43,282 nt of DNA, taken from contig QEVM01000036.1 in the NCBI GenBank assembly GCA_003576805.1, positions 1 to 43,282 of the forward strand, read 5' to 3'. Positions 2,943 through 25,892 of this stretch are shown here, in pieces. This DNA is from Pseudomonadota bacterium. Lineage in GTDB: Bacteria > Myxococcota_A > UBA9160 > PR03. The translations under genes and the position numbers were made by a program. Every line of letters starts with the position of its first letter. The first letter of the stretch is position 1. The notes beneath the pieces were generated by a model. The model made no database searches. It saw nothing but the letters and a program-made list of their open reading frames with translations, and was not told the origin of the DNA.

Positions 2943-2994
2943 AGCGATCTCCGCTCCGCGACTCAAGAACAGCTTTTGGATCGAGCGCAGCAGC

Positions 2995-5082: not shown

Positions 5083-5116
5083 GGATCGTGCGACACATCG
5101 AGCAGGGTGAATCCAA

Positions 5117-7905: not shown

Positions 7906-7921
7906 CATGATCGCCGTCATA
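7906..7921. promoter_or_regulatory. Palindromic operator O1
   Basis: CATGATCGCCGTCATA, one mismatch from ATGAC-N4-GTCAT in the left half. Its centre is 96.5 bp from the ATG of the diiron gene at 8010. The following bases (ACCCGG, then CGGCAGCGATG) resemble those after operator O2, which suggests a shared promoter layout. Confidence 0.6.
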
Positions 7922-8009: not shown

Positions 8010-8897
8010 ATGGCCGACTTCCTCTCGATGTACTCGATCCAGCACTGGCTCGCATCCTGTCCGCAGGGCTACCTGGCGGGCACCGAGTTCGGGCACGCCC
8101 CGCACGAACGCGAGCCTGGCCTCGTCCTCGAGGACCCCCTGCTCCGCGAGCAGGCCATCGGCACCACGGTGCAGCTCGTCGTCGGCGAGCGTTGCGCGTT
8201 GGCGGCCTCGTCCGGGCTCGTCAACGCAGCGCCCGACGAGGCGAGCAAGTGCTTCCTCGCCACGCAGACGCTCGACGAAGCACGCCACGTCGAGGTGTTC
8301 TCGCAGCGGCTCCAGGACCTGGGCGTGAAGCGGAGCGAGCTCGAGGACACGATCCGCCAGTTCGCAAACCCGAACCTGGTGCGCTTCGCCGAAGTCCTGC
8401 TCGAGAAGGTCGACCGCAAGGACTTCGTAGCCGGCGTCGTCGGCCAGAACATCGTGCTCGAAGGCATGGCCTTCAGCGTGTTCGAGATGATGCACGCCGG
8501 CATGCAGGACGTGAACCCGAAGTTCGCGCACACGCTGTCCGGCACGATCGCCGACGAGCGCCGCCACGTCGGCTTCGGCGAGAACCGGATCGGCTCGCTG
8601 ATCGCGCAGCACCCGGAGAAGAAGCCCGAGATCGAGCGCATGCAGAAGGAGATGTCCTACTGGATGCTGGCGACCTTCGCGGACTCGTTCCGGAACTCGC
8701 CCGCGCGCGAGGAGATGCGGAAGCTGCGGGCCAACCTCTCGGGCTACGGCTCGGCGCCGGCGAAGTGGCAGGGAGCCGATCTCACGGCGCTGGAGCCGGC
8801 CGAGATGGAGCGGCTCCTCGCCGACACGGTGCTCAAGGAGTTCAAGGTACGCCTGGGCCGGATCGGCATCGAGTACCAGACGCCCGCGCAGCCCTGA
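8010..8897 (+). CDS. Ferritin-like diiron oxidase/oxygenase, paralogue 1
   Basis: A 295-residue protein with the four-helix diiron signature: GERCALAAS (first Glu), TLDEARHVEVFSQR (ExxH), VLEGMAFSVFE (third Glu) and IADERRHVGFGENR (second ExxH). This is the ferritin-like superfamily that includes AurF-type N-oxygenases and R2-like oxidases, which activate O2. The N-terminus carries WLASCPQGYLAGTEFG. It is the first gene of a tight operon; its TGA overlaps the next ATG (TGATG). The substrate is unknown. It is downstream of operator O1, so probably expressed with the nitrite-reduction genes. Two further paralogues lie in the same cluster. Confidence 0.8.
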   Translation: MADFLSMYSIQHWLASCPQGYLAGTEFGHAPHEREPGLVLEDPLLREQAIGTTVQLVVGERCALAASSGLVNAAPDEASKCFLATQTLDEARHVEVFSQRLQDLGVKRSELEDTIRQFANPNLVRFAEVLLEKVDRKDFVAGVVGQNIVLEGMAFSVFEMMHAGMQDVNPKFAHTLSGTIADERRHVGFGENRIGSLIAQHPEKKPEIERMQKEMSYWMLATFADSFRNSPAREEMRKLRANLSGYGSAPAKWQGADLTALEPAEMERLLADTVLKEFKVRLGRIGIEYQTPAQP

Positions 8898-9169: not shown

Positions 9170-9459
9170 TGGTCGATCCTCTCGAACGAGAGGCGGACGA
9201 CGCTCCGCGCCGGCGCTTCCTGCTCGAAGAGACGGGCTTCGACGAGGTGCCGCCGAAGTACCGCCGCTTCTACCGCCGCTGGCAGGGCGCCAGTGACAGG
9301 CTCGGCCCCAACGAGGCGATCTGTCCGGTCTGCAAGGTCGTGATCCGCTCGACCCGCGAGCTGCGCGAGGGCGATCGCGTGTACTGCATGCCGTGCATGT
9401 CGCGCCTCGTGCTGGTGCGCGCCGGCGACGGCGCGCTGGAGGCGCGGGTCGCCTACTGA
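9169..9459 (+). CDS. Small zinc-ribbon protein
   Basis: A 96-residue protein, third gene of the O1 operon. The C-terminal half has ICPVCKVVIRST and then VYCMPCMSRLV, two CxxC knuckles about 22 residues apart, typical of a zinc or rubredoxin-like ribbon. The N-terminal half is charged (PPKYRRFYRRWQ). The start at 9169 is fixed by the overlap with the previous stop. Its 3' end overlaps the convergent radical SAM gene by 7 bp. A possible role is as a small metal or redox partner for the diiron protein; this is inference. Confidence 0.65.
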   Translation: MVDPLEREADDAPRRRFLLEETGFDEVPPKYRRFYRRWQGASDRLGPNEAICPVCKVVIRSTRELREGDRVYCMPCMSRLVLVRAGDGALEARVAY

Positions 9460-10358
9460 CTCTGCGTAGACGGGCGGGCGAGCTTCGCCGCGAGGTGGAA
9501 GACCACCCACGCTCCACAGCGGTCGCAATCGACGTCATTGCCGTAGCAGCAGAACGGCGTGGCGAAGCGGTCGTGCTCCATGTAGAGCGGCAGGACGTGA
9601 CGCTTCGCGGGGCACGCGTCGGTGACCCGCTTGCAATGCTCGGGCAGCATCAACTCCAGCGAGCGGGTCGAGTTGCGGATGAAGCCCGGATGCTCGCGCC
9701 CGAGCCGCATCACCTCGCGCACGGCGGCCGCGCGCTCCTGGTTGGTGGGCCAGGCGTCGTCGCCCGCGTCGCCCGCCCGTGGCACGTAGAACGAGAACGT
9801 CATCCAGCCGGCGCGGGTTCCGCGCACGGCCTCGACGAGCTCCTCCAGGCGGTGCTGGTTCCGGCGTGTGACGACCGCCTGCACCTGGACCGGGCTCGCG
9901 AAGCGTTCGGGAATCCGCGACAGCGTCCGGATCACGCGGCGGAAGACGCCCGCGCCGCGAATCCGGTCGTTCAGGTCCTCCGGTCCATCGAGGCTCACGA
10001 CGTAGAGCGCGCCCGGGCCGAAATCGACGAGCGGAACGGTGCCGTTCGTGGTGACCGTGTTGCGGGAAAAGAGTCGGAGGCCGCGCTCGAGGAGGTGGGG
10101 CTTCAGCAGCGGCTCACCGCCCATCCAGAGCATCGAGACGATGCCGTGGCGGTCGCGGAGCGCGCGCAGCGTCTCGAGGATCTCGTCGTCACGCATCCCG
10201 TCGCGGATCGACCGCGAGGCCTGGTTCGGATTTCCGTCCCGGAACACGAAGCAGTGCGAACACGACAAGTTGCAATGGTTGGTGACGTTGACCAACGCCG
10301 CCGGGTAGCGGGCATCGTCGCGATAGGAGCCGGTGAGGCGGGCGCGGATCTTTTTCAC
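9453..10358 (-). CDS. Radical SAM protein with C-terminal Cys-rich (SPASM-like) region
   Basis: A 301-residue protein. NHCNLSCSHCFVF gives the CxxxCxxC motif that holds the [4Fe-4S] cluster for S-adenosylmethionine cleavage; LWMGGEPLLKP is the SAM-binding GGE motif. The C-terminus has eight cysteines, including EHCKRVTDACPAK, FCCYGND and DCDRCGAW, suggesting auxiliary cluster(s) as in SPASM proteins. GTG 10358 is chosen because longer versions would read through operator O2. The gap from operator centre to start is only 46.5 bp, so the mRNA may be nearly leaderless. The gene is divergent from diiron paralogue 2 and both probably share O2. Substrate unknown. Confidence 0.82.
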   Translation of the reverse strand: MKKIRARLTGSYRDDARYPAALVNVTNHCNLSCSHCFVFRDGNPNQASRSIRDGMRDDEILETLRALRDRHGIVSMLWMGGEPLLKPHLLERGLRLFSRNTVTTNGTVPLVDFGPGALYVVSLDGPEDLNDRIRGAGVFRRVIRTLSRIPERFASPVQVQAVVTRRNQHRLEELVEAVRGTRAGWMTFSFYVPRAGDAGDDAWPTNQERAAAVREVMRLGREHPGFIRNSTRSLELMLPEHCKRVTDACPAKRHVLPLYMEHDRFATPFCCYGNDVDCDRCGAWVVFHLAAKLARPSTQSQ

Positions 10359-10396
10359 GGCCGTGCATCTTCTATCCCAGCGCCGGAGCGCGGAAC

Positions 10397-10412
10397 TATG
10401 ACCGACGTCATA
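10397..10412. promoter_or_regulatory. Palindromic operator O2 between divergent genes
   Basis: TATGACCGACGTCATA, perfect ATGAC-N4-GTCAT half-sites. Its centre lies 97.5 bp from the rightward diiron start (10502) and 46.5 bp from the leftward radical SAM start (10358). CAGCAT at 10435-10440 sits where a -10 element would be if the site were at -41.5 for rightward transcription. Confidence 0.7.
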
Positions 10413-10501
10413 CCCGGACGTGAGCTCGCGACGGCAGCATGCCCCCGCCATCCGAGTCGGCCGATTCGCGGCCGTCCGCGGCCCGTGGAGGATTGCACCG
10501 C

Positions 10502-11458
10502 ATGCCCGTCGACGAGCTCGTCACCTCGCTGAAGACACTCTGGCGGTTCGACTACGAGCCGAAGGTCAAGGCCTTGCGCGACCTGTACGAGGTGGCGAAG
10601 AAGGAGCAGTGGAACGCCTCCGCAGACATCCCGTGGAAGCTCGAGACCGAGCACCCGGGCGAAGTGCTGGACCCGCGACAAGACATGTTCCGGGATCTCG
10701 ACGTCGTGAAGGCGCTGCCCGAGGACAAGCAGACCGAGGTCTCGGTCCGCAACGCTGCGTGGATCCTGTCCCAGTTCATGCACGGCGAGCAGGGGGCCCT
10801 GCTCTGCTGTGGACAGCTCATCGAGGTGGTGCCCGACATCGACGGCAAGCTGTACGCGGCCACCCAGGTGGTGGACGAGGCTCGACACGTCGAAGTGTTC
10901 CACCGCTACATCACGCGGCTGCACGGCGTGTACCCGATGGACCCCACGCTGCAGGCCGTGCTCAACCAGATCCTGGAGGCCGACCTCTGGCAGATGAAGT
11001 GCGTCGGAATGCAGGTGATCGTCGAGGGACTCGCGATGGGCACCTTCAAGATCATGAAGGAGGGGACGAAGGACGAGCTGTTCCGCCGGATCGTCGGCCT
11101 CACCTCCCAGGACGAGGCGCGTCACGTCTCCTACGGCCTGATCTACATGAAGGACGAGCTCCCGCGCATGTCGGAGCCCGACCGCGCGCGCGTGGAGGAC
11201 TTCGCGTTCGCAGCCGTCGACGCCCTGTGCGGGCGGCGGCCGGGCACCGGGCTCCTGACGCAGGGGGCGATCCTCGAGGAGGTCGGCGTGAACCTCGGGG
11301 CGGCGGTCGCGGAGATCCAGGCGAAGCTCGGCGATCCCGAGTTCGTGGCTTCCCAGCCGGACCCGTTCCGCGACTACGTCATGCCGCAGCTCACGCGGCT
11401 CGGAATCATCACCGAGCGGACCGCCCCGCGGTACCGCGAGCTGGGCTTCGCCGTGTAG
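10502..11458 (+). CDS. Ferritin-like diiron oxidase/oxygenase, paralogue 2
   Basis: A 318-residue protein. Motifs are KKEQWNASADIPWKLE near the N-terminus, HGEQGALLCCGQ (first Glu), VVDEARHVEVFHRY (ExxH), VIVEGLAMGTFK (third Glu) and SQDEARHVSYGLIY (second ExxH). It shares the QWN...D-(I/V)-PW element with paralogue 3, so these two are closer to each other than to paralogue 1. The ATG at 10502 has GGAGG upstream at good distance; the ATG at 10439 has no such site and lies near the predicted transcription start. It is the first gene of a probable operon with the Coq4-like and NorE-like genes. Likely an O2-dependent oxidase; substrate unknown. Confidence 0.82.
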   Translation: MPVDELVTSLKTLWRFDYEPKVKALRDLYEVAKKEQWNASADIPWKLETEHPGEVLDPRQDMFRDLDVVKALPEDKQTEVSVRNAAWILSQFMHGEQGALLCCGQLIEVVPDIDGKLYAATQVVDEARHVEVFHRYITRLHGVYPMDPTLQAVLNQILEADLWQMKCVGMQVIVEGLAMGTFKIMKEGTKDELFRRIVGLTSQDEARHVSYGLIYMKDELPRMSEPDRARVEDFAFAAVDALCGRRPGTGLLTQGAILEEVGVNLGAAVAEIQAKLGDPEFVASQPDPFRDYVMPQLTRLGIITERTAPRYRELGFAV

Positions 11459-11485: not shown

Positions 11486-12220
11486 GTGAGAGGGCTCGTG
11501 GCAGCACGCAATCGCCTCCGTCCCCTGGTCGCGCTGCGCGCCATGCGCAGGCTCGGCCAGGACCCGGACGACACGGCGCAGGCGATCGTGGTGATCGCGG
11601 CGCTGGCCGGAGGCTCGAACCAACGGCTCCTGCGCCGCTTCCGCCGCTCGCCGCGCGCGGAAGCGATCCTGCGCGAGCGCCGCGACCTGTATGGCCTGCT
11701 GGGCGACCTCGACGGTCTGCTGACGCTGCCGGCGGGCTCGCTCGGCCGGGCGATCGGCGACTGGTTCGCGCGCGAGCAGATCGGCGCACAGGGCCTCGCG
11801 CAGGCCGCCACGACGGCGCGCGCTCAGCTCGGGACGACCCCGCCCGACGGCGGTGACGAGCAGGTGTTCCTCGCCCGGCTGCTCAACCTGCACGACGTCT
11901 TCCACGTGCTGACCGGCTACGACCGCGATCTCCGCGGCGAGGCGGCGGTGCTCGCCTTCACGCTGGCGCAGACGCGGAGCCCGGGCATCGCCTACATCGT
12001 CCTGCGTATCCTGCTGCGCGCGGGCTGGCGGTCGGAGATGGGGCGGCTCATTCGGCAGGGCTTCCGGCGAGGTCTCCACTCGGCCTGGCTGATCGACGAG
12101 GACTGGGAGGCGCTGCTGGCCCGGCCGCTCGACGAGGTCCGCGACCGGCTCGGAATCGGGAAGCCGCCGATCTACGAGCAGGTGCGATCGCCCGCGGCCC
12201 CCGCGCTGACGGCTGGCTGA
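11486..12220 (+). CDS. coq4: Coq4-family protein
   Basis: A 244-residue protein. LHDVFHVLTGYDRDLRGEAAVLAF contains the Coq4 metal motif HDxxH-x(11)-E, and the C-terminus has DEDWEALLARPLDEVRDRLGI followed by PPIYEQ, also typical. Coq4 acts in ubiquinone biosynthesis; recent work links it to C1 decarboxylation and hydroxylation of the quinone ring. The GTG start at 11486 is 27 bp after the diiron stop; a GTG at 11498 is an alternative. Pairing of a Coq4-like and a diiron enzyme recalls the Coq4/Coq7 partnership, but the diiron protein is not Coq7. It could modify a quinone or another aromatic compound. Confidence 0.8.
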   Translation: MRGLVAARNRLRPLVALRAMRRLGQDPDDTAQAIVVIAALAGGSNQRLLRRFRRSPRAEAILRERRDLYGLLGDLDGLLTLPAGSLGRAIGDWFAREQIGAQGLAQAATTARAQLGTTPPDGGDEQVFLARLLNLHDVFHVLTGYDRDLRGEAAVLAFTLAQTRSPGIAYIVLRILLRAGWRSEMGRLIRQGFRRGLHSAWLIDEDWEALLARPLDEVRDRLGIGKPPIYEQVRSPAAPALTAG

Positions 12221-12272: not shown

Positions 12273-12887
12273 GTGGAACGCAACGTCATCCTGCTCCGGC
12301 CGCAGCGACGCACGCGGGGGATCGCCGCCGACCACGGCATGCTCGCAGCGATCGTCCTCGTGGTCATCGAGGCTCTGCTCTTCGTCGGCTTGGTGAGCGC
12401 CTTCTGGCTCACCCGGGCGGAGGCCGGCGGCGCTTGGCCGCCGTCCGGCCAGCCGTGGTTCCCGCCGGAGGAGCTGGCGATCAACACCGTCGCGCTTCTA
12501 GCGAGCGGCGCGCTCGTCTCCTGGGCGGCCCGCACCTGGGAGAACCCGGAGGCACGGATCGCGCCGGTGCTGTTCGCCGCGATGCTGCTCGGCGGCTTCT
12601 TCCTGTTCTTCCAGGGCGTCGTCTGGCTCCACCTCATCCGCGAGGGGCTGAGCCTGACCTCGAGCCATCACGGCAGGTTCTTCTGCCTGATCCATGTGCT
12701 GCACGCCATGCACACCGTCGGCGCGCTGGCGCTGCTCGGCATCGTGTGGCTGCGCCTCGAGCCGCTCCGCGACGACGGCGTGCAATCCAGGGAGCGCATG
12801 TGGGGCAGCGCCTTCTCGGCGGCGCGCATTCCCTGGTACTTCGCGGTCGGAAGCTGGCCCGTGCTCTATTTCAGCCTCTATCTCTGA
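12273..12887 (+). CDS. norE: Heme-copper oxidase subunit III-like membrane protein (NorE-like)
   Basis: A 204-residue integral membrane protein with about five hydrophobic helices: HGMLAAIVLVVIEALLFVG, ELAINTVALLASGAL, APVLFAAMLLGGFFLFFQG, VLHAMHTVGALALLGIVWL and a C-terminal YFAVGSWPVLYFSLYL. The order and the HLIREGL and HVLHAMHTVG segments match cytochrome c oxidase subunit III, and the short form found in denitrification loci is NorE. Its exact job in NO metabolism is not settled. GTG 12273 is 52 bp after the Coq4-like gene, so probably the same operon. It overlaps the convergent small membrane gene by 10 bp. Confidence 0.75.
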   Translation: MERNVILLRPQRRTRGIAADHGMLAAIVLVVIEALLFVGLVSAFWLTRAEAGGAWPPSGQPWFPPEELAINTVALLASGALVSWAARTWENPEARIAPVLFAAMLLGGFFLFFQGVVWLHLIREGLSLTSSHHGRFFCLIHVLHAMHTVGALALLGIVWLRLEPLRDDGVQSRERMWGSAFSAARIPWYFAVGSWPVLYFSLYL

Positions 12888-13177
12888 GAGCCCTTCTCGT
12901 CCGACTCGACCACCCTACCGAACTCCCAGGCGGTGTCGTGATGGTGGTAGAGCCAGACGGCCTCGTGGGTCGTCCCGCCCGGATCGCGGTAGGAGATCCG
13001 ACATCGGACGCTTTCGGCTGAGCCCATCTCGGCTCCCGAATCCAGCAGCACGTCGCCCGGATCCGCGACGTACGTATACGCGAGGACCAACGCAACGGCC
13101 GTGAACAGGAGCGCGTAGTACTTCCACATCCCCGAACCCCGACCGGTTGTGGGCGCCTCGACCGTCCCTGCCGTCAT
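12878..13177 (-). CDS. Small single-span membrane protein
   Basis: A 99-residue protein with an N-terminal cytoplasmic tail, one membrane helix (MWKYYALLFTAVALVLAYTYV) and a soluble domain of about 60 residues containing SVRCRISYRDP and AVWLYHHHDTAWEFG. The ATG at 13177 overlaps the ferredoxin stop (ATGA) and is preceded by a strong AAGGAGG. It is the last gene of the nod-ferredoxin operon. The three consecutive histidines might bind metal. No family recognised; a membrane anchor or partner for the ferredoxin or the Nod/NOR-like enzyme is a guess. Confidence 0.7.
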   Translation of the reverse strand: MTAGTVEAPTTGRGSGMWKYYALLFTAVALVLAYTYVADPGDVLLDSGAEMGSAESVRCRISYRDPGGTTHEAVWLYHHHDTAWEFGRVVESDEKGSQR

Positions 13178-13569
13178 TCGTCCTCCTTGCGGGCCGGCGA
13201 GCTGGGGGGGCCCTGGAACAGATCCCCGAACCTGCGGGCCAGCTGGCCGAGCGCGGAGCCGAGCGTTCGCTGGTCGGCCCGGAAGCGAGAAGTCTCCGGC
13301 CCGAGCTGCAGTTTGCGGCCGCTTCCGGCGTGCAGCTTCTGCGCGCGCTCGAACAGCACCTCCTCGGTCTCCGGGTTGTCCGGGTCGACCACGCAGCAGT
13401 CGACGGGACAGACCCGCTCGCACTGCTGCGTGTGGTGGAACCCGACGCACTCGCTGCAGAGGGCGGGGTCGATCACGTAGATGTCCGGCCCCTTGGAGAT
13501 GCCCCCGCTCGGACACACGCTCTCGCAAGCGCCGCAGTTCACGCAGGCTTCGGTGATCTTGTTGGCCAT
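13174..13569 (-). CDS. Ferredoxin with two [4Fe-4S] motifs and a C-terminal extension
   Basis: A 131-residue protein. ACVNCGACESVCPSGGI and CSECVGFHHTQQCERVCPVDC are the two cluster-binding motifs of a YfhL/Alvin-type 2[4Fe-4S] ferredoxin, with the usual insertion between cysteines of the second motif. A further 55 residues follow, rich in Arg, Gln and Leu, which could dock a partner. It lies 74 bp downstream of the NOR/Nod-like gene, with a strong hairpin between, and overlaps the next gene by 4 bp. It probably carries electrons to an enzyme of this cluster, perhaps a radical SAM or diiron protein. Confidence 0.85.
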   Translation of the reverse strand: MANKITEACVNCGACESVCPSGGISKGPDIYVIDPALCSECVGFHHTQQCERVCPVDCCVVDPDNPETEEVLFERAQKLHAGSGRKLQLGPETSRFRADQRTLGSALGQLARRFGDLFQGPPSSPARKEDE

Positions 13570-13643: not shown

Positions 13644-15968
13644 CTAGGCCGCCCAGTGCTTCTCGTAGACGGTCCACTCGCCCTCGGACTCGAGCTCCGG
13701 CGTCTCCCTGCGCATGCGGGTGGCGTTCTTCAGGAAGAACCACATCAAGGGCAGCACGCCACCCACGATGAACAGCGTTCCGCCGATCGAGCGCAGGTAG
13801 GTCAGGGTCTTCCACACGGGCCCCGTCAGGACCTCCTGCGTCCGGGCGAACCACAGGCCCTCCTGGAGCACGATCATGAGCTGATAGACGCCCACCGGGA
13901 ACAGGTCGAGCATCATCATCAGCAGCAGGCCGATCTGCAGGGACCAGAACGACGTCTTGACCAGCTTCTCGCTCCAGTCGTGCTTGTGGAGCAGGTGCTG
14001 CATGCAGAACAGCATCCCACCGATCGCGATGTTGCCCTTCACCCCGAACATGGCGGCGTGCGCGTGGTTGCCGGTCAGGTACGTGGCGTGCTCGTAGTAG
14101 TTCACGATCGGCAGGTTGATCAGCGAGCCGAACAGCCCGGCCCCGAAGATGTTCCAGAAGTTCACCGCGAGGATGAAGAGCCAGACGCCCTCCATCACGA
14201 ACACCTGCCGGCCCGCCGCCACGTGCCCGCGTGCGTTGCCCGCCTCCGACTTCATGCGCCACGCGTCGAGCGTGAGCAGGAGCAGCGGCAGCACCTGCAG
14301 CGTGGAGAAGACGCCGCCGACCGCGATGATCCCCGTCGGCTTGGCGATCCAGTAGAAGTTGTGGGAGATGCCCAGCGTCGCGGTGACGAGGAACATCATG
14401 ACGGCAAGGAAGATCACGCGCTCGCACATCATCCTCGAGATCAGGCCCATCTGGACGAGCATGTAGCCGACGATCACCGTGGTGAAGACCTCGAAGGTCA
14501 CCTCCACCCACATGTGCACCACCATCCAGCGCCAGTAGTCGGCCACGGCCCAGTTCTGGTCCGGGGAGATCATCAGCCCGAAGAACAGGAAGGCGACCAT
14601 GATTCCGCTGCCGTAGAGGAGCCACGAGGGGACCGACCAGATGTTCTTGGTCGTCAGCCACGGCCGGACCGCGCGGTAGATGATGTAGATCCAGAGCGCG
14701 AACGAGGCCAGCAGCGTGTACTGGAAGGCCCGGCCGAGCTCCATGAACTCCCAGCCCTGGCTTCCGAACCAGTACGCGGCGGCGCCGGTGATCATCCCGG
14801 TCTGCCCGGCGTAGATCCCGACCAGCGCCCCGACACCCGTCACGATGCAGATGCCGAACAGCAGGTTGATCAGGAAGAGCTGTCCATCCGGAACCCGCGA
14901 GATCCGGGGCAGGAAGAACAGCGTGTAGCCGACCCACGCCATGAAGAACCAGTAGATCTGAAACAGCGTGTGGTAGCTGCGCAGGACCGTGAAGGGGATG
15001 ATGCTCGCGAGCGAGACGCCGAACGGGCGAACGAAGTCGGTGGCGGCGAGCATGCCGGCCAGCACCTGCGCGCCGAACAGCAGGATCGCGAGCACGAAGA
15101 ACTTGTACGTCGCCCGCTGGGTCGCGCGTACGCGGCCCTGTTCGAGGTCGTTCGTGGTGAGCGACGTCCCGTTCCCCGTGAACGGATCGCCCTCCTCCTT
15201 GAACTGGCCGTAGATGTAGAGGACCACCAGGATGCCCGCGAACAGGCCGAAGATCGAGATCACGCTCCAGAGCAAGGTCTGGTTGGTCGGCAGGTTCCCG
15301 GCCGCCGGGTCGTAGGGCCAGTTGTGCGTGTAGCTGTAGTCCTGGCCCGGCCGCTGGGCGCCGGCGACCCAGGCTCCCCAGTAGAAGAACGCGGTCAGCG
15401 CCGCGATGTCGTCGGGGTCGCTGATGAATCCCGCGGGATCGAAGGCCTCGTCGTAGTCGGGATCGTTGAACATCCGGTTGTAGTGGATCTTCAACTCCTC
15501 GAACGCGTGGATCTGGGCGTCGTTGAGCACGATGTGGCCCGCGGCTTCGTCCCAGGTGTTGGTCTTGATCTCGCGGGTCACGCGGACCCCGATCGCATCC
15601 GCGTCGTACTGGCTCGGCGTGCCTCCGCCGTTCTGCCGCTCGTAGAAGGACCGCATCGCGACGACGGTGCGGTGCAGCGCGTCGGCGGTGAAGTCCGGTC
15701 CGCGCTCCGCGCCGTCGCCCCAGAACGAGCCGTAGGTCATCAGGCCCCGGAGGTGGAACACCTCCTGTCCCTTCTTGATCTGCTCGACGGGGATCACCAC
15801 CTCCCCCGTCGACGAGACGTAGTCGGTGAGCGGCGGCGCTCCGGTGTAGGTCTCCGTGCCGAGATAGACGAGTCCACTCAGGCAGATCGCGGCGACGATC
15901 AGGAAGTGGACCCACCACGTCTTCTTGTCGTGGAGTACCTGGGCGAGGTTCCTCTTCGCGTTGCTCAT
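13644..15968 (-). CDS. nod: Putative nitric oxide dismutase (qNor-like, Nod-type active site)
   Basis: A 774-residue membrane protein with the build of single-chain quinol NO reductase: an N-terminal NorC-like part (VIPVEQIKKGQEVFHLRG, SFWGDGAERGPDFT) and a NorB-like multi-helix core. FeB-site motif HMWVE (H485, E489) and heme-ligand region GNHAHAAMFG (H635, H637) are present. Two features depart from qNor. The HH pair that supplies two FeB ligands reads SHNFYW, with Asn at 537. The quinol-site region expected as AHxxVE reads AATDFV, so His and Glu are Ala309 and Val313. These substitutions are those described for nitric oxide dismutase of Methylomirabilis, which makes N2 and O2 from NO without external electrons. 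ATG 15968 gives the usual N-terminus. Its function as Nod is inferred; a divergent or inactive qNor is the alternative. Confidence 0.85.
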   Translation of the reverse strand: MSNAKRNLAQVLHDKKTWWVHFLIVAAICLSGLVYLGTETYTGAPPLTDYVSSTGEVVIPVEQIKKGQEVFHLRGLMTYGSFWGDGAERGPDFTADALHRTVVAMRSFYERQNGGGTPSQYDADAIGVRVTREIKTNTWDEAAGHIVLNDAQIHAFEELKIHYNRMFNDPDYDEAFDPAGFISDPDDIAALTAFFYWGAWVAGAQRPGQDYSYTHNWPYDPAAGNLPTNQTLLWSVISIFGLFAGILVVLYIYGQFKEEGDPFTGNGTSLTTNDLEQGRVRATQRATYKFFVLAILLFGAQVLAGMLAATDFVRPFGVSLASIIPFTVLRSYHTLFQIYWFFMAWVGYTLFFLPRISRVPDGQLFLINLLFGICIVTGVGALVGIYAGQTGMITGAAAYWFGSQGWEFMELGRAFQYTLLASFALWIYIIYRAVRPWLTTKNIWSVPSWLLYGSGIMVAFLFFGLMISPDQNWAVADYWRWMVVHMWVEVTFEVFTTVIVGYMLVQMGLISRMMCERVIFLAVMMFLVTATLGISHNFYWIAKPTGIIAVGGVFSTLQVLPLLLLTLDAWRMKSEAGNARGHVAAGRQVFVMEGVWLFILAVNFWNIFGAGLFGSLINLPIVNYYEHATYLTGNHAHAAMFGVKGNIAIGGMLFCMQHLLHKHDWSEKLVKTSFWSLQIGLLLMMMLDLFPVGVYQLMIVLQEGLWFARTQEVLTGPVWKTLTYLRSIGGTLFIVGGVLPLMWFFLKNATRMRRETPELESEGEWTVYEKHWAA

Positions 15969-16159: not shown

Positions 16160-16175
16160 TATGACCGCGGTCATA
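16160..16175. promoter_or_regulatory. Palindromic operator O3 between nod and a small ferredoxin gene
   Basis: TATGACCGCGGTCATA, a fully self-complementary 16-mer. It is 199.5 bp (centre to start) from nod on the left and 31.5 bp from the ferredoxin ATG on the right. The short right-hand distance means that gene is either leaderless from a later start or not activated from -41.5. Confidence 0.72.
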
Positions 16176-16198: not shown

Positions 16199-16426
16199 AT
16201 GCTGCCGCGCGTGGCAGCGGGCGCACGGCGATTCGGAGTGGACCGGGATCTCTGCATCGGATGCAAGCTGTGCGAGGAGCGGGCGCCGGAGAACTTCGAG
16301 GTGCCGCCCGGCGAGTCCTGGTCGCGCGTCTTCCAGCAGCCGCGCGACGAACTGGAGGAACGCGCCTGCCTGGAGGCGCAGGAGTACTGCCCGACGGCCT
16401 GCGTCTACGAAGACGAGACGTCGTGA
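16199..16426 (+). CDS. Small single-cluster ferredoxin
   Basis: A 75-residue protein. VDRDLCIGCKLCEERAPENF and, near the end, EYCPTACVYED provide C..C..C....C ligands for one cluster, in the pattern of short [3Fe-4S]/[4Fe-4S] ferredoxins that often serve monooxygenases or P450s. ATG 16199 is the first start after operator O3; GTG codons at 16211 and 16238 are possible if transcription starts later. It could feed electrons to the diiron oxygenases. The 3' end overlaps the convergent phyH-like gene by 22 bp. Confidence 0.78.
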   Translation: MLPRVAAGARRFGVDRDLCIGCKLCEERAPENFEVPPGESWSRVFQQPRDELEERACLEAQEYCPTACVYEDETS

Positions 16427-17259
16427 CCCGGCTCCGCTCCGACTCGCGGTGAGGAAATGCGGGAGTCGCGCGCGCGAATGTTCCGCACTTCGCTCGTGCG
16501 CCAGCGCCGCAGGCCGGCCGGCTGGTAGGCCGCCACGAACACGCGACGGCTCGAGCGGCCCCGGTTGCCGCGCGACCCGTGCACCAGGTCGCGGTGGAAG
16601 GTGACGACCGAGCCGGCAGGGAGCTCGATCGCCCGGGGCGTGCCAGGGACGCCACGCACATCGGTGTACAAGGCGCCGAGCGTCCCGCGATTCGCGAGGC
16701 TCGGGAGGTGCCCGAACCGGTGGCTGCCGGGAATCACCCAGAGACAGCCGTTCTCCTCGCTCGCATCGTCCAGGTAGACGAGCACGCTCACGATCCGGTC
16801 GAGCCGCTCTGCTCCGTACACCCAGTACGGGCTCTCCTGGTGCCAGGGAAAGGGGGCGCCGCCCGGGCGCTTCACGTTGAGCTTGTCGCTGAACAGGCTC
16901 AGCGCCTCGCAGCCGAGCACGCTGCGCACGGGACCCCACAGCCGCGGGTCGTCGACCAGCGCGGCGAGGTGCGGATCGAGATGATGGCAAGGCTCCATCG
17001 AGCGGATCGCCCGCAGCTCTTCGCGCCACTCCCATTTGATCGTCGAGCCCCGCAGCACCTGATAGCGCTGGTTGTCGATCTGCTCGACGGGCGTCACGGG
17101 CTCGGCTTCGGCCGCGTCGAGGATGGCTCGGTGCACGCGCTCGGCGGCCTCGCGCAGCGGCCCGAGCTCCGCCTCGGAGAAGACGGCCGCGCGCGCGAAG
17201 AACCCGAGCTGCTCGAATTGCACGCACTCGTCCGGGGCGGCACGCGTCTGCGGATCCAC
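16405..17259 (-). CDS. Phytanoyl-CoA dioxygenase (PhyH) family Fe(II)/2-oxoglutarate oxygenase
   Basis: A 284-residue protein. PFPWHQESPYWVY carries the HxE metal-binding pair (variant of HxD), and HRDLVHGSRGNRGRSSRRVF carries the distal His and the Arg that binds 2-oxoglutarate; LNVKRPGG and LVYLDDASEENGCLWVIPGSH are also typical of PhyH proteins. Such enzymes use O2 and 2-oxoglutarate to hydroxylate a substrate, unknown here. GTG 17259 has GGAGGG a few bases upstream and lies 29 bp after nirV, so it is the third gene of the nirK operon. An O2-requiring enzyme in a nitrite-reduction operon fits the model of internally made O2. Confidence 0.85.
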   Translation of the reverse strand: MDPQTRAAPDECVQFEQLGFFARAAVFSEAELGPLREAAERVHRAILDAAEAEPVTPVEQIDNQRYQVLRGSTIKWEWREELRAIRSMEPCHHLDPHLAALVDDPRLWGPVRSVLGCEALSLFSDKLNVKRPGGAPFPWHQESPYWVYGAERLDRIVSVLVYLDDASEENGCLWVIPGSHRFGHLPSLANRGTLGALYTDVRGVPGTPRAIELPAGSVVTFHRDLVHGSRGNRGRSSRRVFVAAYQPAGLRRWRTSEVRNIRARDSRISSPRVGAEPGHDVSSS

Positions 17260-17288: not shown

Positions 17289-18059
17289 TCACCGCGCGCT
17301 GCGCGCGCAGCGGAATCCGAGGTGGTGCAGTGCGAAGCGCGCCTGGAGGCTCGAGCGGAAGGCGTGGCGCATCAGGCCGGCGTAGTCCTCCACGTCTGCG
17401 GCGCCGGCCGCGCTCCCGCCACACCAGGCGTCCAGCTGGCGGTCTGCCTTCCGGCGGCCTTCGAGCGCGGCGCGGCTCTTCTCGAAGTCGGAGACCCACT
17501 CGAAGAGCACGCCGTGCTGGTCACGCAGGCCGTAGCGGTTCGGCGGGGACGCGCCCGCGTCGGGAAGAGGCCGCCGGGGACGACCGTAGAAGGCGAGCAC
17601 GCGCTCGCGGATCTCCACCTGCTCCTCGGGCCCGGCGGGCGCGGCCGCCCACTCCCACTCGGCCTCCGTCGGCAGGCGCGCGTCCCGGGCGCCGCAGTAG
17701 CTCCGCGCGGCGAACCAGGAGACGAACGTGATCGGCTGGCGCGGCCGCACCCGCGACCCGAGCTCGAGGTCGCCGGCCCAGTGGGCGAGGTAGAACGCGT
17801 CGGCGACGTCGGGCGACACCTGCGAGCGACGCCAGCGCGAATGCGCGCGCACGAAGGCGAGGAACTCGGCGGTGGTCACCGGTCGCTCGTCGAGCCAGAA
17901 CGCCTCGACCCAGCTTCCTGCGGCCGCGCCCAGTGTCGAGTGGACGGGCACGTGGTAGCCGGCCGGAACGAGCCGCATCCCCGGCGGCGGACTGGCTGCC
18001 TCCGCTGCTGCGGCGGCGGCGAGCCCGACCAGTGCGATGAGGGCGCAGCGACGCTTCAG
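17289..18059 (-). CDS. nirV: NirV-like protein, SUMF1/formylglycine-generating-enzyme fold, exported
   Basis: The FGE-sulfatase (SUMF1) fold is shown by PVTTAEFLAFVRAH, PITFVSWFAARSYCG, RLPTEAEWEWAA, NRYGLRDQHGVLFEWVSDF and the C-terminal LGFRCAR. NirV proteins of this fold are encoded next to nirK in many denitrifiers; their role is still unclear. An ATG at 17978 would give 229 residues and no export signal. The upstream frame encodes LKRRCALIALVGLAAAAAAEA, a good Sec signal peptide, beginning at a CTG that overlaps the nirK stop (CTGA) and has GGAG five bases before it. No ATG, GTG or TTG exists between the preceding in-frame stop and ATG 17978, so I choose the CTG start, giving 256 residues. 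The start is inferred; the product call is firm. Confidence 0.75.
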   Translation of the reverse strand: MKRRCALIALVGLAAAAAAEAASPPPGMRLVPAGYHVPVHSTLGAAAGSWVEAFWLDERPVTTAEFLAFVRAHSRWRRSQVSPDVADAFYLAHWAGDLELGSRVRPRQPITFVSWFAARSYCGARDARLPTEAEWEWAAAPAGPEEQVEIRERVLAFYGRPRRPLPDAGASPPNRYGLRDQHGVLFEWVSDFEKSRAALEGRRKADRQLDAWCGGSAAGAADVEDYAGLMRHAFRSSLQARFALHHLGFRCARSAR

Positions 18060-19534
18060 GGTCGCTCCGCCTTCTGCGCTCCGCGGAGCGCTTCACGCGC
18101 GAGCGCGACATCTTCGTCGCGCACCGCGTCGCCGCGGTTGCCGAAGCTGCTGCGCACGAAGGTCAGCACGTCGGCGATCTCGCGGTCGGCGAGATGCGCC
18201 AGCGGCGGCATCACGCCGTCGTAGGTCTTGCCGTTCACGACCACCGGGCCGGACAGTCCCGCGAGCACGACCTGGATCGAGCGTTCCTTGTCCATCAGGT
18301 AGTCGCTGCCGGCGAGCGGCGGAAAGGCGTCACCCATCCCCTCGCCGTCGGGCTGGTGGCAGGTCGCGCAAACGGATCGGTACACGGCCAGGCCGCGTGC
18401 CCGGCGGGCCGCGGGTGAATCGTCGCCCGCGTCGCTGGCGCCGGCGCGCATCGCGGCCGGCGTGGTGCCCGGCGCGTCGCTGTCGGTCCGATAGATCGCC
18501 TCCTTCTGCCGCCCGGAGTACACGATCCGGTTCGCCGGGCCGCTCACCTCGAGCATGCCGATCGTGCCCTTGTGGAAGGCGCGGAAGAGCGAGTGGTCCA
18601 CGAGGACGTAGCTGCCCGGCACCTGCGTCTGAAACTCCACGACCGCCGATCCGCCGGCGGGAATCAGCGTGGTCTGGACGTCGCGCTGCACACTCGGGCT
18701 GCCCTCCGGGTGGACGACGTCGAAGATCTCGCCGATCACGTGGAACGAGCTCACCAGGTTCGGACCGCCGTTCCCCAGGAACAGGCGTACGGTTTCGCCC
18801 ACCTCGGCACGCAGGGCGTCGTCCCCGGCCAGCGATCCCTCTCGCCCGTTGAACAGCACGTAGGAGGGGTCCTCGTCGATCGCGCGCTCCATGTCGAACG
18901 GCTGATGGCCCGGCTCGCGAAAGTTCCCCCGCGTGTAGAAGTCGCCCTGCACGACGTAGTACTCCCGCTCGACTGATCGCCAGCCTTCCTCGGGCTCGAT
19001 CACGATCATTCCGTACATGCCGTTGGCGACGTGCATGCCGACCGGCGCCGTCGCGCAGTGGTACATGTACACACCCGTGTTCAGGGCCCGGAAGGTGAAC
19101 TGGCTGCGATGCCCCGGTGCCGTGAAGGTGCTCGCGGCGCCACCGCCCGGTCCTGTGACGGCGTGCAGATCGATGTTGTGCGGCATGGTGTTGTCGGGAT
19201 GGTTCATGAGATGCAGCTCGACCAGATCGCCGCGCCGCACGCGGATCATCGGTCCGGGTACCGAACCGCCGAAGGTCCAGAACGTGTATTGGACGCCGTC
19301 GGCGATCTCCTTCACGACCTCGCGCACCTCGATCTCCGCCACCACCCGCGCCGGGTAGTCGCGGTGCACCGGAGGCGCTGGACGGGGCGCCATCCCGAGC
19401 TCGGCTCTCACGACCGGAAGCGTGGTCGGATCGATCTCGGGCAGGCTCGTCGGCGACGCCGGAGCCAGCGAGACCTCGGCTCCGCAGGCAAGGCTCATCA
19501 GCACGCAGCAGACAAGGCCCACCGCTCGTTTCAA
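18056..19534 (-). CDS. nirK: Copper nitrite reductase, AniA-type (class II), with C-terminal cytochrome c
   Basis: A 492-residue protein. It reduces nitrite to NO in the periplasm. First cupredoxin domain: MPHNIDLHAVTG and YHCATAPVGMHVANGMYG supply type 1 ligands (His, Cys, His, Met) and type 2 histidines plus the catalytic Asp; the spacing around Cys is that of Neisseria AniA. Second domain: SFHVIGEIFDVVHPEG and VDHSLFRAFHKGTIG with the remaining catalytic and type 2 histidines. After a linker, VCATCHQPDGEGMG is a CxxCH heme-c site with a distal MPPLAHL Met, so a cytochrome c is fused to the C-terminus as in Ralstonia-type three-domain NirK. TTG 19534 follows GAGGTGG; the N-terminus ends in LMSLAC, a lipobox, so it is probably a lipoprotein. 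First gene of nirK-nirV-phyH, 95.5 bp from O4. Confidence 0.95.
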   Translation of the reverse strand: MKRAVGLVCCVLMSLACGAEVSLAPASPTSLPEIDPTTLPVVRAELGMAPRPAPPVHRDYPARVVAEIEVREVVKEIADGVQYTFWTFGGSVPGPMIRVRRGDLVELHLMNHPDNTMPHNIDLHAVTGPGGGAASTFTAPGHRSQFTFRALNTGVYMYHCATAPVGMHVANGMYGMIVIEPEEGWRSVEREYYVVQGDFYTRGNFREPGHQPFDMERAIDEDPSYVLFNGREGSLAGDDALRAEVGETVRLFLGNGGPNLVSSFHVIGEIFDVVHPEGSPSVQRDVQTTLIPAGGSAVVEFQTQVPGSYVLVDHSLFRAFHKGTIGMLEVSGPANRIVYSGRQKEAIYRTDSDAPGTTPAAMRAGASDAGDDSPAARRARGLAVYRSVCATCHQPDGEGMGDAFPPLAGSDYLMDKERSIQVVLAGLSGPVVVNGKTYDGVMPPLAHLADREIADVLTFVRSSFGNRGDAVRDEDVALAREALRGAQKAERP

Positions 19535-19621: not shown

Positions 19622-19637
19622 TATGACGGATGTCATG
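19622..19637. promoter_or_regulatory. Palindromic operator O4 upstream of nirK
   Basis: TATGACGGATGTCATG, perfect ATGAC-N4-GTCAT core. Its centre is 95.5 bp from the nirK start, nearly the same distance as O1 and O2 to their diiron genes (96.5 and 97.5), so the promoters are probably built alike. No intact gene lies to its right. The stretch 19638-19842 shows nothing I can name. Confidence 0.72.
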
Positions 19638-20512: not shown

Positions 20513-20528
20513 TATGACCGTGGTCATA
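20513..20528. promoter_or_regulatory. Palindromic operator O5
   Basis: TATGACCGTGGTCATA, perfect half-sites and perfect outer T and A. Its centre is 41.5 bp from the leftward GTG at 20479. To the right are only gene remnants, so on that side it may once have served a gene now lost. Confidence 0.7.
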
Positions 20529-21227: not shown

Positions 21228-21243
21228 TATGACATCGGTCATA
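21228..21243. promoter_or_regulatory. Palindromic operator O6 upstream of diiron paralogue 3
   Basis: TATGACATCGGTCATA, perfect ATGAC and GTCAT halves. Its centre is 78.5 bp from ATG 21314. Confidence 0.7.
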
Positions 21244-21313: not shown

Positions 21314-22402
21314 ATGTCTGCATACAGCCCGGTCGTGGAAGAAGGACTCGAGCGCATGCTCGCGATGGTGCGAGGCGACTTCGATCTCTCCTGGATGGAC
21401 TCGAATCCCACCGGCTGGGGCCATCGCGTCCAGCCGGGCGCCAGCGGTCTCGGCCTGCGCGACGTGGATACCGGCGCCTACGGTGTCGTGCCCGAGTACG
21501 GGTCGAGCCACGGGAGCATGGCGCCGCGCGGTTGCTTCGTGCCCGCCGACACGCCGTCGCTCGGCATGTACGACCTGAACGAGAAGGCCACGGTCTGGTC
21601 GGACAACGCCGCCATGCTCTACGACGAGGCCGTCACCCGGCAGTGGAACTCGGTGACGGACGTGCCCTGGCACAAGCTCCAGAAGCTGCCGGACGACATC
21701 GAGAAGGCCGTGTGCCAGATGTGCACGAACTTCACGGAGGTCGAGTTCGTCGCGGGCGACATGCCGGCCAAGTGGCTGTGCCACATCAACCACGACTTCC
21801 ACGAGGTGAAGCTGTTCCTGGCGACGCAGATCATGGACGAAGCACGCCACATGGACGTGTTTCGGAAGCGGGCGCTGGCCAACGGCGGCGGCCTGCTGAT
21901 GGCGTCCCCGGGCAACGAGGCGCTGCTGGCGGCCATCCTCCAGGCTCCCAACTACACGACCGCCAGTGCCTTGATGCACATCTTCGGCGAGGGCTTCATC
22001 CTGACGCTGTTCCGGGCGGGGGAGTTCCTGGCGCCCACCGAGGTGGAGAAGACGATCTTCCGCCTCTGCATGCAGGACGAGGCGCGCCACGTGGCGTACG
22101 GCGTCAAGCACCTCCAGTACTTCGTCGCCCGGCACCCGGAGATGATGGAGGAGATCCATCACATCCTGGGTCTCGGCGAGGAGGCGATCTTCCGGCTGAC
22201 CCTCGAGCCCCAGACGCTCGAGCCTCGGGCGATCCTCGCCGGCAAGGGCGTCGAGAACATCCAGCTCGGGATGACACGGCTCGCCTTCCTGTACAACAAG
22301 CAGATCACGGAGTACCTGCAGCGGCTCAAGATCGCCGGCATCGATCGGCTGCCGCGCATGAAGATTCCCGCCGAGCTGCCCGCGCTGGGTCCGGAGGTCT
22401 GA
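21314..22402 (+). CDS. Ferritin-like diiron oxidase/oxygenase, paralogue 3
   Basis: A 362-residue protein, the longest of the three. Diiron motifs are NFTEVEFVAGD (first Glu), QIMDEARHMDVFRKR (ExxH), FGEGFILTLFR (third Glu) and CMQDEARHVAYGVKH (second ExxH). TRQWNSVTDVPWHKL matches paralogue 2. An extra N-terminal 70 residues precede the fold. ATG 21314 has AAGGAGG at ideal spacing. The next gene starts 3 bp after the stop. Like its paralogues it should activate O2 at a di-iron or mixed-metal centre; N-oxygenation (AurF type) is one known chemistry of this superfamily. Confidence 0.83.
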   Translation: MSAYSPVVEEGLERMLAMVRGDFDLSWMDSNPTGWGHRVQPGASGLGLRDVDTGAYGVVPEYGSSHGSMAPRGCFVPADTPSLGMYDLNEKATVWSDNAAMLYDEAVTRQWNSVTDVPWHKLQKLPDDIEKAVCQMCTNFTEVEFVAGDMPAKWLCHINHDFHEVKLFLATQIMDEARHMDVFRKRALANGGGLLMASPGNEALLAAILQAPNYTTASALMHIFGEGFILTLFRAGEFLAPTEVEKTIFRLCMQDEARHVAYGVKHLQYFVARHPEMMEEIHHILGLGEEAIFRLTLEPQTLEPRAILAGKGVENIQLGMTRLAFLYNKQITEYLQRLKIAGIDRLPRMKIPAELPALGPEV

Positions 22403-22405
22403 ACG

Positions 22406-22870
22406 ATGTCGAGCGCCGTTTGCTTTCCCTCGGTCGACTGGTTCGAGCGGCTCGCCAACGCCATGCGGAAGGAAGTCGAGCGCTTCCAGGAGCTGGGAAC
22501 CACCGATTGCACGATGGTCGTGAAGGTCGATCTCGGCGCGCTCGGGACCAGGATCTACGAGATCGGGTTCGAGGGCTTCGAGATCACGGAGATCCGCGAG
22601 CTCTCGTCTCTCGAGCAGGCCAAGGCGAGCCACTTCGTCGTCGAGGGCTCACTCGAGGCCTGGCGCGAGATGATCGAAAACATCCGCCGCAACGGCGCTC
22701 CGGACCTCGAGCACACGCTCAACTATTTGACGCTGCCGGACGTTCCCTTGCGGGTCAGCGGGCCCGACCAGCTCGAGATCGACGCCTTCTACCGCTACAA
22801 CGAGACGATCCAGCGCTTCTTCAACGGCGCCGCGGGGATCGCTACCCGCTACGAGCGGGTAGCGATCTGA
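22406..22870 (+). CDS. Small SCP2-like protein, partner of diiron paralogue 3
   Basis: A 154-residue protein, 3 bp after the diiron gene. FPSVDWFERLANAMRKEVER, YEIGFEGFEITEIRELSS and HFVVEGSLEAWREMIENI resemble the sterol-carrier-protein-2 fold, a small hydrophobic-ligand binding domain. The match is from memory of the fold and is moderate. If right, it may deliver a lipid or quinone-like substrate to the diiron enzyme. Its last codons and stop lie inside a perfect hairpin. Confidence 0.65.
   Translation: MSSAVCFPSVDWFERLANAMRKEVERFQELGTTDCTMVVKVDLGALGTRIYEIGFEGFEITEIRELSSLEQAKASHFVVEGSLEAWREMIENIRRNGAPDLEHTLNYLTLPDVPLRVSGPDQLEIDAFYRYNETIQRFFNGAAGIATRYERVAI
22837..22867 (+). terminator. Hairpin overlapping the end of the SCP2-like gene
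   Basis: 22837-22850 pairs perfectly with 22854-22867: a 14-bp stem with a 3-nt loop that ends one base before the TGA stop. There is no T-run. It is a likely transcription stop or processing site after the diiron-SCP2 pair. Confidence 0.6.
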
Positions 22871-22946: not shown

Positions 22947-24059
22947 ATGCGCGGTGCAGCCGCCGCGACGTCGCTCCCTCCGTCGCTCGGTAGCTGGAGG
23001 CGGCCGCGCCTGCATGGAGCGAGCGTCGCGCGCATGGTTCGCGAGCTCGACGCCGGCGTGCTGCGCTTCCACCTCGAGTACGAGCTGCGCCTGTGGCTCC
23101 GGCGCCGGGTCGCGGGCCTTCACACGGAACACCCGACGGCGCTCTACCTCGAGACGTCGAGCTACTGCGAGGGCGCCTGCGCGGACTGCTACGTACCGGC
23201 CGTCGACCGCCGCCGGCACCTCGAGCTCGATGCCGACACCCTCGAGCGGCTGATCGCCGACGCCGAACGCCTGCCTCTCGCCTTCGTCTGCCTGGTCGGC
23301 GGCGAGCCGCTCGACGGCTCGGTCGCGGAGCGGAACTTGCGGCTGGTGCGCGAGCACCCGCGGACGCGCTTTCTGATCTGCACCAGCGGCGAGCCGCAGA
23401 TCGGCCGGGATCTCGTGCGCGAGCTCGGGACGCTGTGCAACCTCTCGCTGCTCGTATCCTTCGAAGGTCTCGCCGAGACGCATCGGCGCATTCGGCCGCG
23501 AGGCAGCTTCGAGCGCGCGTGCGCCGCGGTGCACACCTATCGGCGACAGGGCCGCGGCATGTGCGGAGCGAGCATCACGCTACGGACCGACAACTGGCGC
23601 GAGGCCACGAGCCGGGCCTTCGTCGAGTCTCTAACCGCCGCCGGCTGCCACTTCCTGTCGTACGCCCCGTGCGAAACCCGCGACGGCCGTCAAGCGTTGG
23701 ACCCCGAACGGTACGCCCACGCTCTGGCGCGGCTGGCCGCGCTCTCCGCCTCGGCGACGGCGCTGATTTTCTGCCACCCGTTCGGCCAGATCCTCGGTGG
23801 GAAGGTTCCGACGGTGCAGCGACTTCGAAGCCTGACGGTCGACTACGCCGGCAACGTCTACACCGCACGCCGCGGGCCCTCGTTCGGAAACGTCCACCGA
23901 ACCGACCTCTCCACGCTGCTCGCGCGACCCGACCTCCGGGCGTCCTACGGCGTGCCGGAGGCGACCGGCGCCGCTCCGGCTCCAGCTTCTCGACACCAGG
24001 GCGGAGATCGAGGTGGGCTGCGAGGCGTGGCGGCGGCGAGTGACGGGAGCTGCGGGTGA
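22947..24059 (+). CDS. Radical SAM protein, second copy
   Basis: A 370-residue protein. TSSYCEGACADCYVPAVD contains CxxxCxxC for the [4Fe-4S] cluster and LVGGEPLDG the GGE motif; a later VDYAGNVYTARRGPSFGNVH resembles a SPASM-type tail but lacks its cysteines. ATG 22947 is preferred; ATG 23034 also fits. The last 25 or so residues look low-complexity, while a different frame there reads QLLDTRAEIEVGCEAWRRR, so the 3' end may carry a small frameshift. It differs clearly from the radical SAM protein at 9453. Substrate unknown; it could mature a peptide or build a cofactor for the diiron enzymes. Confidence 0.78.
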   Translation: MRGAAAATSLPPSLGSWRRPRLHGASVARMVRELDAGVLRFHLEYELRLWLRRRVAGLHTEHPTALYLETSSYCEGACADCYVPAVDRRRHLELDADTLERLIADAERLPLAFVCLVGGEPLDGSVAERNLRLVREHPRTRFLICTSGEPQIGRDLVRELGTLCNLSLLVSFEGLAETHRRIRPRGSFERACAAVHTYRRQGRGMCGASITLRTDNWREATSRAFVESLTAAGCHFLSYAPCETRDGRQALDPERYAHALARLAALSASATALIFCHPFGQILGGKVPTVQRLRSLTVDYAGNVYTARRGPSFGNVHRTDLSTLLARPDLRASYGVPEATGAAPAPASRHQGGDRGGLRGVAAASDGSCG

Positions 24060-24232: not shown

Positions 24233-24248
24233 CATGACCGCGGTCATA
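24233..24248. promoter_or_regulatory. Palindromic operator O8 upstream of the GT8-like gene
   Basis: CATGACCGCGGTCATA, with a core identical to O3. Its centre is 130.5 bp from ATG 24371. The rest of the 310-base gap between genes holds only O7 and a ribosome-binding site. Confidence 0.68.
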
Positions 24249-25367: not shown

Positions 25368-25892
25368 ATGACCGCCGAAGCGAGCCTGCGGGCAGCGCCC
25401 GCGGTCGTCGTGGCGCAGGAGGACGGGCGGCTGGTCGCGCTCGACGCGGGCGCTCGCCGCCTGCTCGGGGACGCCCTGGGTCGGGAGTGCTGGCGCGCCA
25501 TCGGAGAACTGAGGGATGCCGAAGGCCTGCCCTGCCGCACCCACTGTGTGCGCGCGCTGCTGGAGCGGGGCACGATGGCGGCGCAGCACTCACGGGTCCT
25601 GCTGGGCGGAGTGCGCCACTCGCTCAGCTGCCTGGCGCTCGACGGACGCGTCGTCTGCCTGTTGAGCCCCGCTTCGGATCAGCGTCCCACGGCCTGGCAG
25701 CTGCTGAGCGCGCGCGAGCGCGAGGTGCTGCGGCTCCTGTCCGAAGGCCTCACCACCGGTGCGATTGCCGCGCGCCTCGAGCTGAGCGAGGCGACCGTGC
25801 GCACCCACGTCGAGCACATGCGGGAGAAGCTCGGAGTGAGCACGCGCGCCGCGCTCGTCTCGCGCGGATACACGCTCGGCTTCCTGGGCTAG
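25368..25892 (+). CDS. PAS-like/LuxR-type transcriptional regulator
   Basis: A 174-residue protein. The first 110 residues form a PAS-like sensor region (VVAQEDGRLVALDAGARRLL, with Cys at ECWRAI and LPCRTHCVRALLE). The C-terminal 65 residues are a LuxR/GerE helix-turn-helix: LSAREREVLRLLSEGLTTG, LELSEATVRTHVEHM, REKLGVSTRAALV. ATG 25368 follows GGGGAG. The CRTHC pair could hold an Fe-S cluster or react with NO or O2. It is the only regulator inside the palindrome-marked cluster and so a candidate reader of that palindrome, although LuxR-type sites usually look different. Confidence 0.82.
   Translation: MTAEASLRAAPAVVVAQEDGRLVALDAGARRLLGDALGRECWRAIGELRDAEGLPCRTHCVRALLERGTMAAQHSRVLLGGVRHSLSCLALDGRVVCLLSPASDQRPTAWQLLSAREREVLRLLSEGLTTGAIAARLELSEATVRTHVEHMREKLGVSTRAALVSRGYTLGFLG

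Follow-up and report, generated by a model that had tools for sequence, protein, structure and literature searches.

The closest described counterparts of the locus reported here are the putative nitric oxide dismutases (Nods) of Methylomirabilis (DAMO_2434/2437) and HdN1. As published, a Nod is marked by an Asn, a Gln and a lost quinol site (PMC3413370), and 55 of 88 environmental nod clones are reported to combine H328T with E332R (PMC10286720). Nod has not yet been isolated and opposing results are on record (PMC13386854), and foraminiferal nor genes with nod characters accompany N2O production (PMC6636425). In Methylomirabilis, nod lies near pmoA-C, and a 2026 study of 66 nod-bearing MAGs describes no clear O2-consuming enzyme system beside nod (both PMC13386854). 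Here, by contrast, the neighbours of nod are nirK and genes for diiron proteins. Since that survey names no clear O2 consumer beside nod, the present cluster offers a direct test of the use of Nod-derived O2 outside methanotrophs, as the candidate users found here carry the same signal as nod and nirK. Literature on nitric oxide dismutase in Myxococcota came down to PMC13386854 and PMC8906906. A search combining dismutase, oxygenic denitrification and diiron found no paper, which is a weak negative as most subscription papers and bioRxiv lay outside its scope.

The window (the whole stretch of DNA analysed, 43,282 nucleotides) contains a gene, nod, for a putative nitric oxide dismutase of 774 aa (P0002), identified from Pfam domains, hallmark residues and a tree. 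The preliminary description had placed it at 13644..15968. These coordinates are correct. However, nod is encoded on the minus strand, with its ATG at 15968 and its stop at 13644, and the plus strand holds only an unrelated frame. The product contains Pfam COX1 and NorB_cytochrome_c-like domains, both above cut-off. Its best solved-structure matches are qNors (3AYF at E 3e-123), with two cNors ranking last among the 13 matches. Residues were compared in the numbering of Geobacillus qNor 3AYF using a 102-row alignment, with which a pairwise alignment concurs for His328 and Glu332. The protein shares with the qNors (Geobacillus 3AYF, Alcaligenes 6QQ5) its architecture, the active-site His485 (508) and Glu489 (512), His536 (559) and the heme ligands His635 and His637 (651/653); the active-site and heme residues had already been described as retained. 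In contrast, the quinol-site His, Glu, Phe and Asp, the FeB ligand His560 and Glu581 are all changed. Asn537, within the motif SHNFYW, takes the place of His560 as originally proposed. The loss of the quinol-site His and Glu also stands, although at other positions: His328 corresponds to Thr310 rather than Ala309, and Glu332 to Arg314 rather than Val313. Ile699, suggested as the position of the quinol-site Asp, was rejected, as Gly730 occupies the Asp746 column. Phe336 falls in a gap, meaning that all four quinol-site residues (328, 332, 336 and 746) are lost, and the qNor signature of His328, Asp746 and FeB His560 reads Thr, Gly and Asn. A third published hallmark, the replacement of Glu581 by Gln558, had been overlooked.

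When 5.8 billion proteins were searched and 8000 candidates scored, 1473 of these proved to be relatives, of which 120 were listed. Asn and Gln are present in 121 of 121 rows (the window protein plus the 120 listed of 1473 homologues), and a sequencing error at Asn537, like a chance substitution, can therefore be rejected. Within the alignment, Asn560 and Gln581 occur in all 81 Nod-classed rows (75 Nods, four duplicate entries for genes among them, and the diverged L131 and L063_7339), whereas His and Glu occur in all 19 qNor rows (17 from the same phylum and two PDB chains). Thr and Arg at 328 and 332, the pattern of the window protein, are found in 31 of the 75 Nod rows. In a quick LG+G4 tree of 97 rows, the 75 Nod rows (one duplicating another) form a single clade (SH-aLRT 100) that includes HdN1 (L054) and Methylomirabilis (MAG L032). 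The 19 qNors fall outside it and three diverged rows branch in between, the program flagging long branches for diverged rows. The window protein belongs to the Nod clade, in line with the identity proposed in the preliminary description. Like the putative Nods of Methylomirabilis and HdN1, it has Asn and Gln at the two hallmark sites and no quinol site, and it is of the same fold family. It is 63-64% identical to L054 and L032, and 32-37% identical to qNors of the same phylum. A misread true qNor was rejected, with pairwise alignment, multiple alignment and tree all concurring. The assignment to the Nod family is thus backed by every published residue hallmark as well as the tree, and sequence comparison supports nod as a newly found member of an established family whose biochemistry is unproven. 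The novelty is in the surroundings of nod, not in the gene itself, and the preliminary description had missed both the wider putative regulon and the candidate O2 users.

Within the Nod clade, the window protein sits in a 13-row group (support 100) with three MAGs titled Deltaproteobacteria, whose NCBI lineage is Myxococcota, and with proteins source-named Myxococcota and Sandaracinaceae. The host is therefore likely to be myxococcal. A GTDB genome scan for nod provided 72 loci. In a sample of the phylum, Nod was found in 13 of 377 genomes at a threshold of at least 60% identity over at least 200 aa, which excludes G207 (47%), G095 (fragments) and G253 (27 aa).

Several other members of the family deserve mention. 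L131 (G207:C425:4464-6683) is Nod-like, 47% identical to the window protein, with Asn560, Gln581 and a Gly for Glu332; it retains the quinol-site His328, Phe336 and Asp746, and from its sequence may be an evolutionary intermediate. L007 (G143:C65:21856-23577) is a second Nod-like copy directly after a Nod gene (about 42-44% identity), lying at a contig end and with one internal TGA. All Nod hallmarks are present in the cultured Magnetovibrio blakemorei MV-1 (L070), Roseovarius amoyensis GCL-8 (L035) and Terasakiella brassicae (L052), which are possible laboratory models for Nod.

Gene frames in the window were set by GC3 per codon position. The nearby nirK noted in the preliminary description was recovered at 18056..19534 (minus strand); it encodes a copper nitrite reductase (TIGR02376, 347 bits, cut-off 296) fused to a C-terminal cytochrome c domain (PF00034). 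Between nirK and nod, also on the minus strand, are a gene for a formylglycine-generating-enzyme-like protein (17289..17978, PF03781, 91 bits), which we take to be NirV-like, and a PhyH-family gene for an Fe(II)/2-oxoglutarate oxygenase-like protein (16405..17250, start estimated, PF05721, 104 bits). Directly 3′ of nod is a YfhL-family 4Fe-4S ferredoxin gene (13174..13569, minus, NF033683, 93.6 bits, cut-off 86), of a type found near nod at 10 of the 80 loci, including the window. Its stop is overlapped by the start of a gene for a small protein (12878..13177, minus) with one likely membrane helix by eye. This protein gave no match in a Pfam scan and has relatives in 7 of 72 nod loci. In G114, a genome of the same family, the order nirK, formylglycine-generating-enzyme-like gene, PhyH, nod, ferredoxin and small protein is as in the window. 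Further on, on the plus strand, are a cytochrome oxidase subunit III-like gene (12273..12887, PF00510, 49 bits), presumably NorE-like, whose relatives adjoin nod in 4 of 72 loci, and a Coq4-like gene (11486..12220, PF05019, 57 bits).

A perfect palindrome, ATGACNNNNGTCAT, precedes several genes of the window, nod and nirK among them. Nine copies were found in the 5.54 Mb genome, against one of a reversed control pattern. Six of them are in the window, where 100 shuffles yielded none. The copy at 16161..16174 (ATGACCGCGGTCAT) is about 190 bp 5′ of the nod start, and that at 19623..19636 lies before nirK. A third (10398..10411) separates the diverging genes of a diiron protein, diB, and a radical SAM protein (9453..10451 as listed, minus, PF04055, 55 bits; start taken as <10398), and a fourth (21229..21242) is about 70 bp 5′ of another diiron gene, diC. 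The remaining two precede a small protein gene (20183 to about 20480, minus; palindrome 20514..20527) and a glycosyltransferase-looking gene without a Pfam match (24371-25339; palindrome 24234..24247), which is followed by a LuxR/GerE regulator (25368..25892, plus, PF00196, 63 bits). All nine copies are confined to contigs C27, C323 and C355, the three outside the window being on C323 and C355, and on C355 the palindrome is beside a cytochrome c gene and a gene that by eye looks like MobB. Consequently, no perfect palindrome is present on the contigs carrying the cNor (C417), NosZ (C412) or five other COX1-family genes of the host, and the idea of a palindrome before cNor or NosZ was dropped. 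One-mismatch versions do occur elsewhere, for instance inside the cNor norB and in an oxidase stretch.

The palindrome is likely to be a shared switch of nod, nirK and the diiron genes. A 5-4-5 layout is that of Crp/Fnr family operators, and from this layout the palindrome is probably read by one putative regulator of the Crp/Fnr type. An arrangement in G346, where a hemerythrin gene has one palindrome in front of it and a regulator gene of the Crp/Fnr type after it, fits such an operator. Among same-phylum nod stretches, however, only 5 of 13 contain a perfect palindrome (the window, G114, G060, G153 and G143). G114 has two 5′ of nirK and, on C31, one upstream of a Coq4-like relative, while in G060 the palindrome precedes coq4. 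Across the 72 public nod loci there are eight with a perfect copy; the four outside the same-phylum group (L023, L047, L054 and L061) look like background.

Three genes in the window encode diiron-type proteins. The product of diB (10439..11458, plus) exceeds the Pfam cut-off for the AurF family (PF11583, 54 vs 29.6 bits), and its candidate ligands, assigned by motif (E117, E147, H150, E196, E226 and H229), are invariant in 30 of 30 relatives. A structural model (pLDDT 82) has AurF as its best match and also resembles aldehyde deformylating oxygenase (ADO), R2lox and CmlI. By these sequence features diB is an AurF-family, diiron oxygenase-like protein. The family has a great many members: of 7999 candidates scored, 7991 match. 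For diC (21314..22402, plus), a sequence search gave a single match up to E 1, at E 0.13. The fold that comes closest to its model (pLDDT 75) is that of the azoxy synthase VlmB (8wvr; E 3.3e-4, TM 0.51), followed by R2lox, methane monooxygenase (MMOH) and PaaC, with ADO also matched. Candidate ligands E176, H179, E226 and H259 are present in 30 of 30 relatives and E256 in 29 of 30. The third, diA (8010..8897, plus), is ferritin-like, matches the R2lox model NF006200 at E 5.5e-8, below its cut-off, and groups with diB and diC in ORF clustering; it has a one-mismatch palindrome upstream, at 7907. Directly after diC is a gene for a 154-aa protein of unknown family (22406..22870, plus, no Pfam match). 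Among the 50 listed matches of each model, diB and diC hit mostly two-metal-site oxygenases and oxidases. diB has the fold and the carboxylate/His ligand pattern of AurF, VlmB, R2lox and ADO, and diC appears to resemble them in the same way, but sequence identity in the listed matches is only 11-20%. We therefore infer O2 use by diB and diC from fold, a common palindrome signal and co-occurrence with Nod.

This co-occurrence was seen without preset families. Clustering of ORFs within 9 kb of nod at 80 loci recovered the diiron family in 10 loci (16 genes). At a threshold of at least 55% identity, diB is present in at least 12 of 13 Nod genomes but was found in only 5 of 364 others, or 5 of 77 when the comparison is kept to the same order and class, all counts being lower bounds as at most five candidates per genome were scored. 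Of the 32 diB genes in Nod genomes, 7 are no more than 10 kb from nod, where 0.15 would be expected, and a perfect palindrome lies within 400 bp 5′ of 9 of 46 diB genes in 17 genomes (0.027 expected). P-values for co-occurrence are inflated by kinship, as related genomes are not independent. A run of diC, the small 154-aa gene and nod is present in L037 and L042 with a palindrome 5′ of diC, and L068 has diC and the small gene upstream of nod without one. Because the Nods of these three loci are in a different clade from that of the window, diC and nod probably became associated on more than one occasion, judging from the sequences. In the phylum sample, diC as a Nod-specific partner is unsupported: orthologues of at least 73% identity are present in seven genomes without Nod, and in the three of these that could be checked there was no palindrome on the diC contig.

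The best explanation of these data, to which we give about an even chance, is that the Nod-family protein splits NO supplied by NirK into N2 and O2, and that the palindrome-bearing AurF-like and VlmB-like diiron proteins use this O2. From its family membership, NirK would reduce nitrite to NO, and Nod would convert NO to N2 and O2, because a Nod that lacks the quinol site would not be expected to draw electrons from quinol. In anoxia diB and diC would then spend the O2 made by Nod, perhaps with the ferredoxin as electron donor, and one regulator at the palindrome would respond to low O2 or to nitrogen oxides.

In relatives, the palindrome is also associated with molybdenum enzymes. Of 70 type II DMSO-reductase-family genes, 6 have it immediately in front, against 0.037 expected, and six more have it 2.35-2.62 kb upstream; in G114 the intervening gap contains MobB and the beta subunit. 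The 70 typed matches (one partial, at 308 bits) come from 14 genomes with complete palindrome lists, the count leaving out G324, G266, G350 and G220 (5 matches, no palindrome in genome) as well as shorter or incomplete matches, of which three exceeded 600 bits. A single alpha subunit, that of G114, was scanned; its top-scoring model is that of type II DMSO reductase (920 bits, just short of the cut-off of 985), with ethylbenzene dehydrogenase next (698 bits, cut-off 2000), and the G114 beta subunit is above the cut-off of its own model. Ethylbenzene dehydrogenase hydroxylates without O2. As the palindrome is also found before Mo hydroxylase-like genes that need no O2, it may mark anoxic growth in general. 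A wider proposal is that one palindrome runs anoxic hydroxylation in this myxococcal order, with O2 from NirK and Nod passing to diA, diB and diC for a non-methane, probably lipid-like substrate, and with an expanded set of ethylbenzene dehydrogenase-like Mo enzymes, hydroxylating without O2, under that palindrome in relatives. We advance this tentatively, as somewhat short of an even chance. If true, biological O2 from NO would serve oxygenase chemistry well beyond methane and alkanes. Palindromes were observed 63-165 bp before type II DMSO-reductase-family genes in G075:C202, G230:C142, G065:C45 and G238:C63, and the family is expanded in G230 (19 matches) and G075 (17 matches).

The host may have other means of handling O2 and NO. 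It encodes a cNor-type norC-norB pair (C417), a NosZ propeller domain (C412) and, in addition, five COX1-family proteins besides Nod, with which it may respire external O2 and clear NO otherwise. The O2 of the Nod-family protein could thus be respired by terminal oxidases, or the protein could serve mainly in NO removal, leaving the diiron genes as independent neighbours in an anoxia regulon. Besides the five COX1-family genes, the palindromes before O2-independent Mo enzymes fit such a scheme, as do G280 and G350 (67% complete), in which diB has a palindrome and no Nod was detected. LuxR and NsrR near nod have been read as a possible sign of NO detoxification (PMC13386854). In our data, LuxR/GerE relatives are near nod in 13 other loci of 80 examined, the copy in the window being beyond the 9-kb range. 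Nevertheless, the perfect palindrome that precedes nirK, nod, diB and diC is missing from the oxidase, cNor and NosZ contigs, and diB follows Nod in at least 12 of 13 genomes. On balance, we consider this alternative rather unlikely.

It is also conceivable, but improbable, that the protein is a divergent NO reductase yielding N2O, in which Asn and Gln merely retune the site and the neighbouring ferredoxin or some other donor supplies the electrons. At 26 of 80 loci from several phyla (L054, L014 and L015 among them), genes for 4Fe-4S ferredoxins of two types do occur no more than 9 kb from nod, the heme ligands and most FeB ligands are retained, and the foraminiferal nod-like genes accompany N2O (PMC6636425). 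Set against this, Glu581 is lost in 81 of 81 Nod rows, 80 of them (all but L131) also lack His328 and Asp746, and the host already has a cNor-type pair. Finally, a cluster making an N-N or N-O natural product, with NirK, Nod and the AurF/VlmB-like enzymes handling reactive nitrogen, is suggested by the best folds (azoxy synthase for diC, N-oxygenase for diB) and by the two radical SAM genes (the second at 22947..24059, plus, PF04055, 52.5 bits) and glycosyltransferase-looking gene close by, but is highly improbable given the very large diB family and the lack of assembly-line genes in the scan of window ORFs, which covered part of its genes.

Two further stretches of the window may be noted. 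The start of an ORF at 26101-26682, which has no NCBIfam or Pfam match, resembles the MobB found after LuxR in G114, and this ORF is possibly a decayed MobB copy. At 240-6985, genes for SNF2-type, UvrD-type and Schlafen-group-3 helicases stand in a row, possibly as a defence-like or repair cluster.
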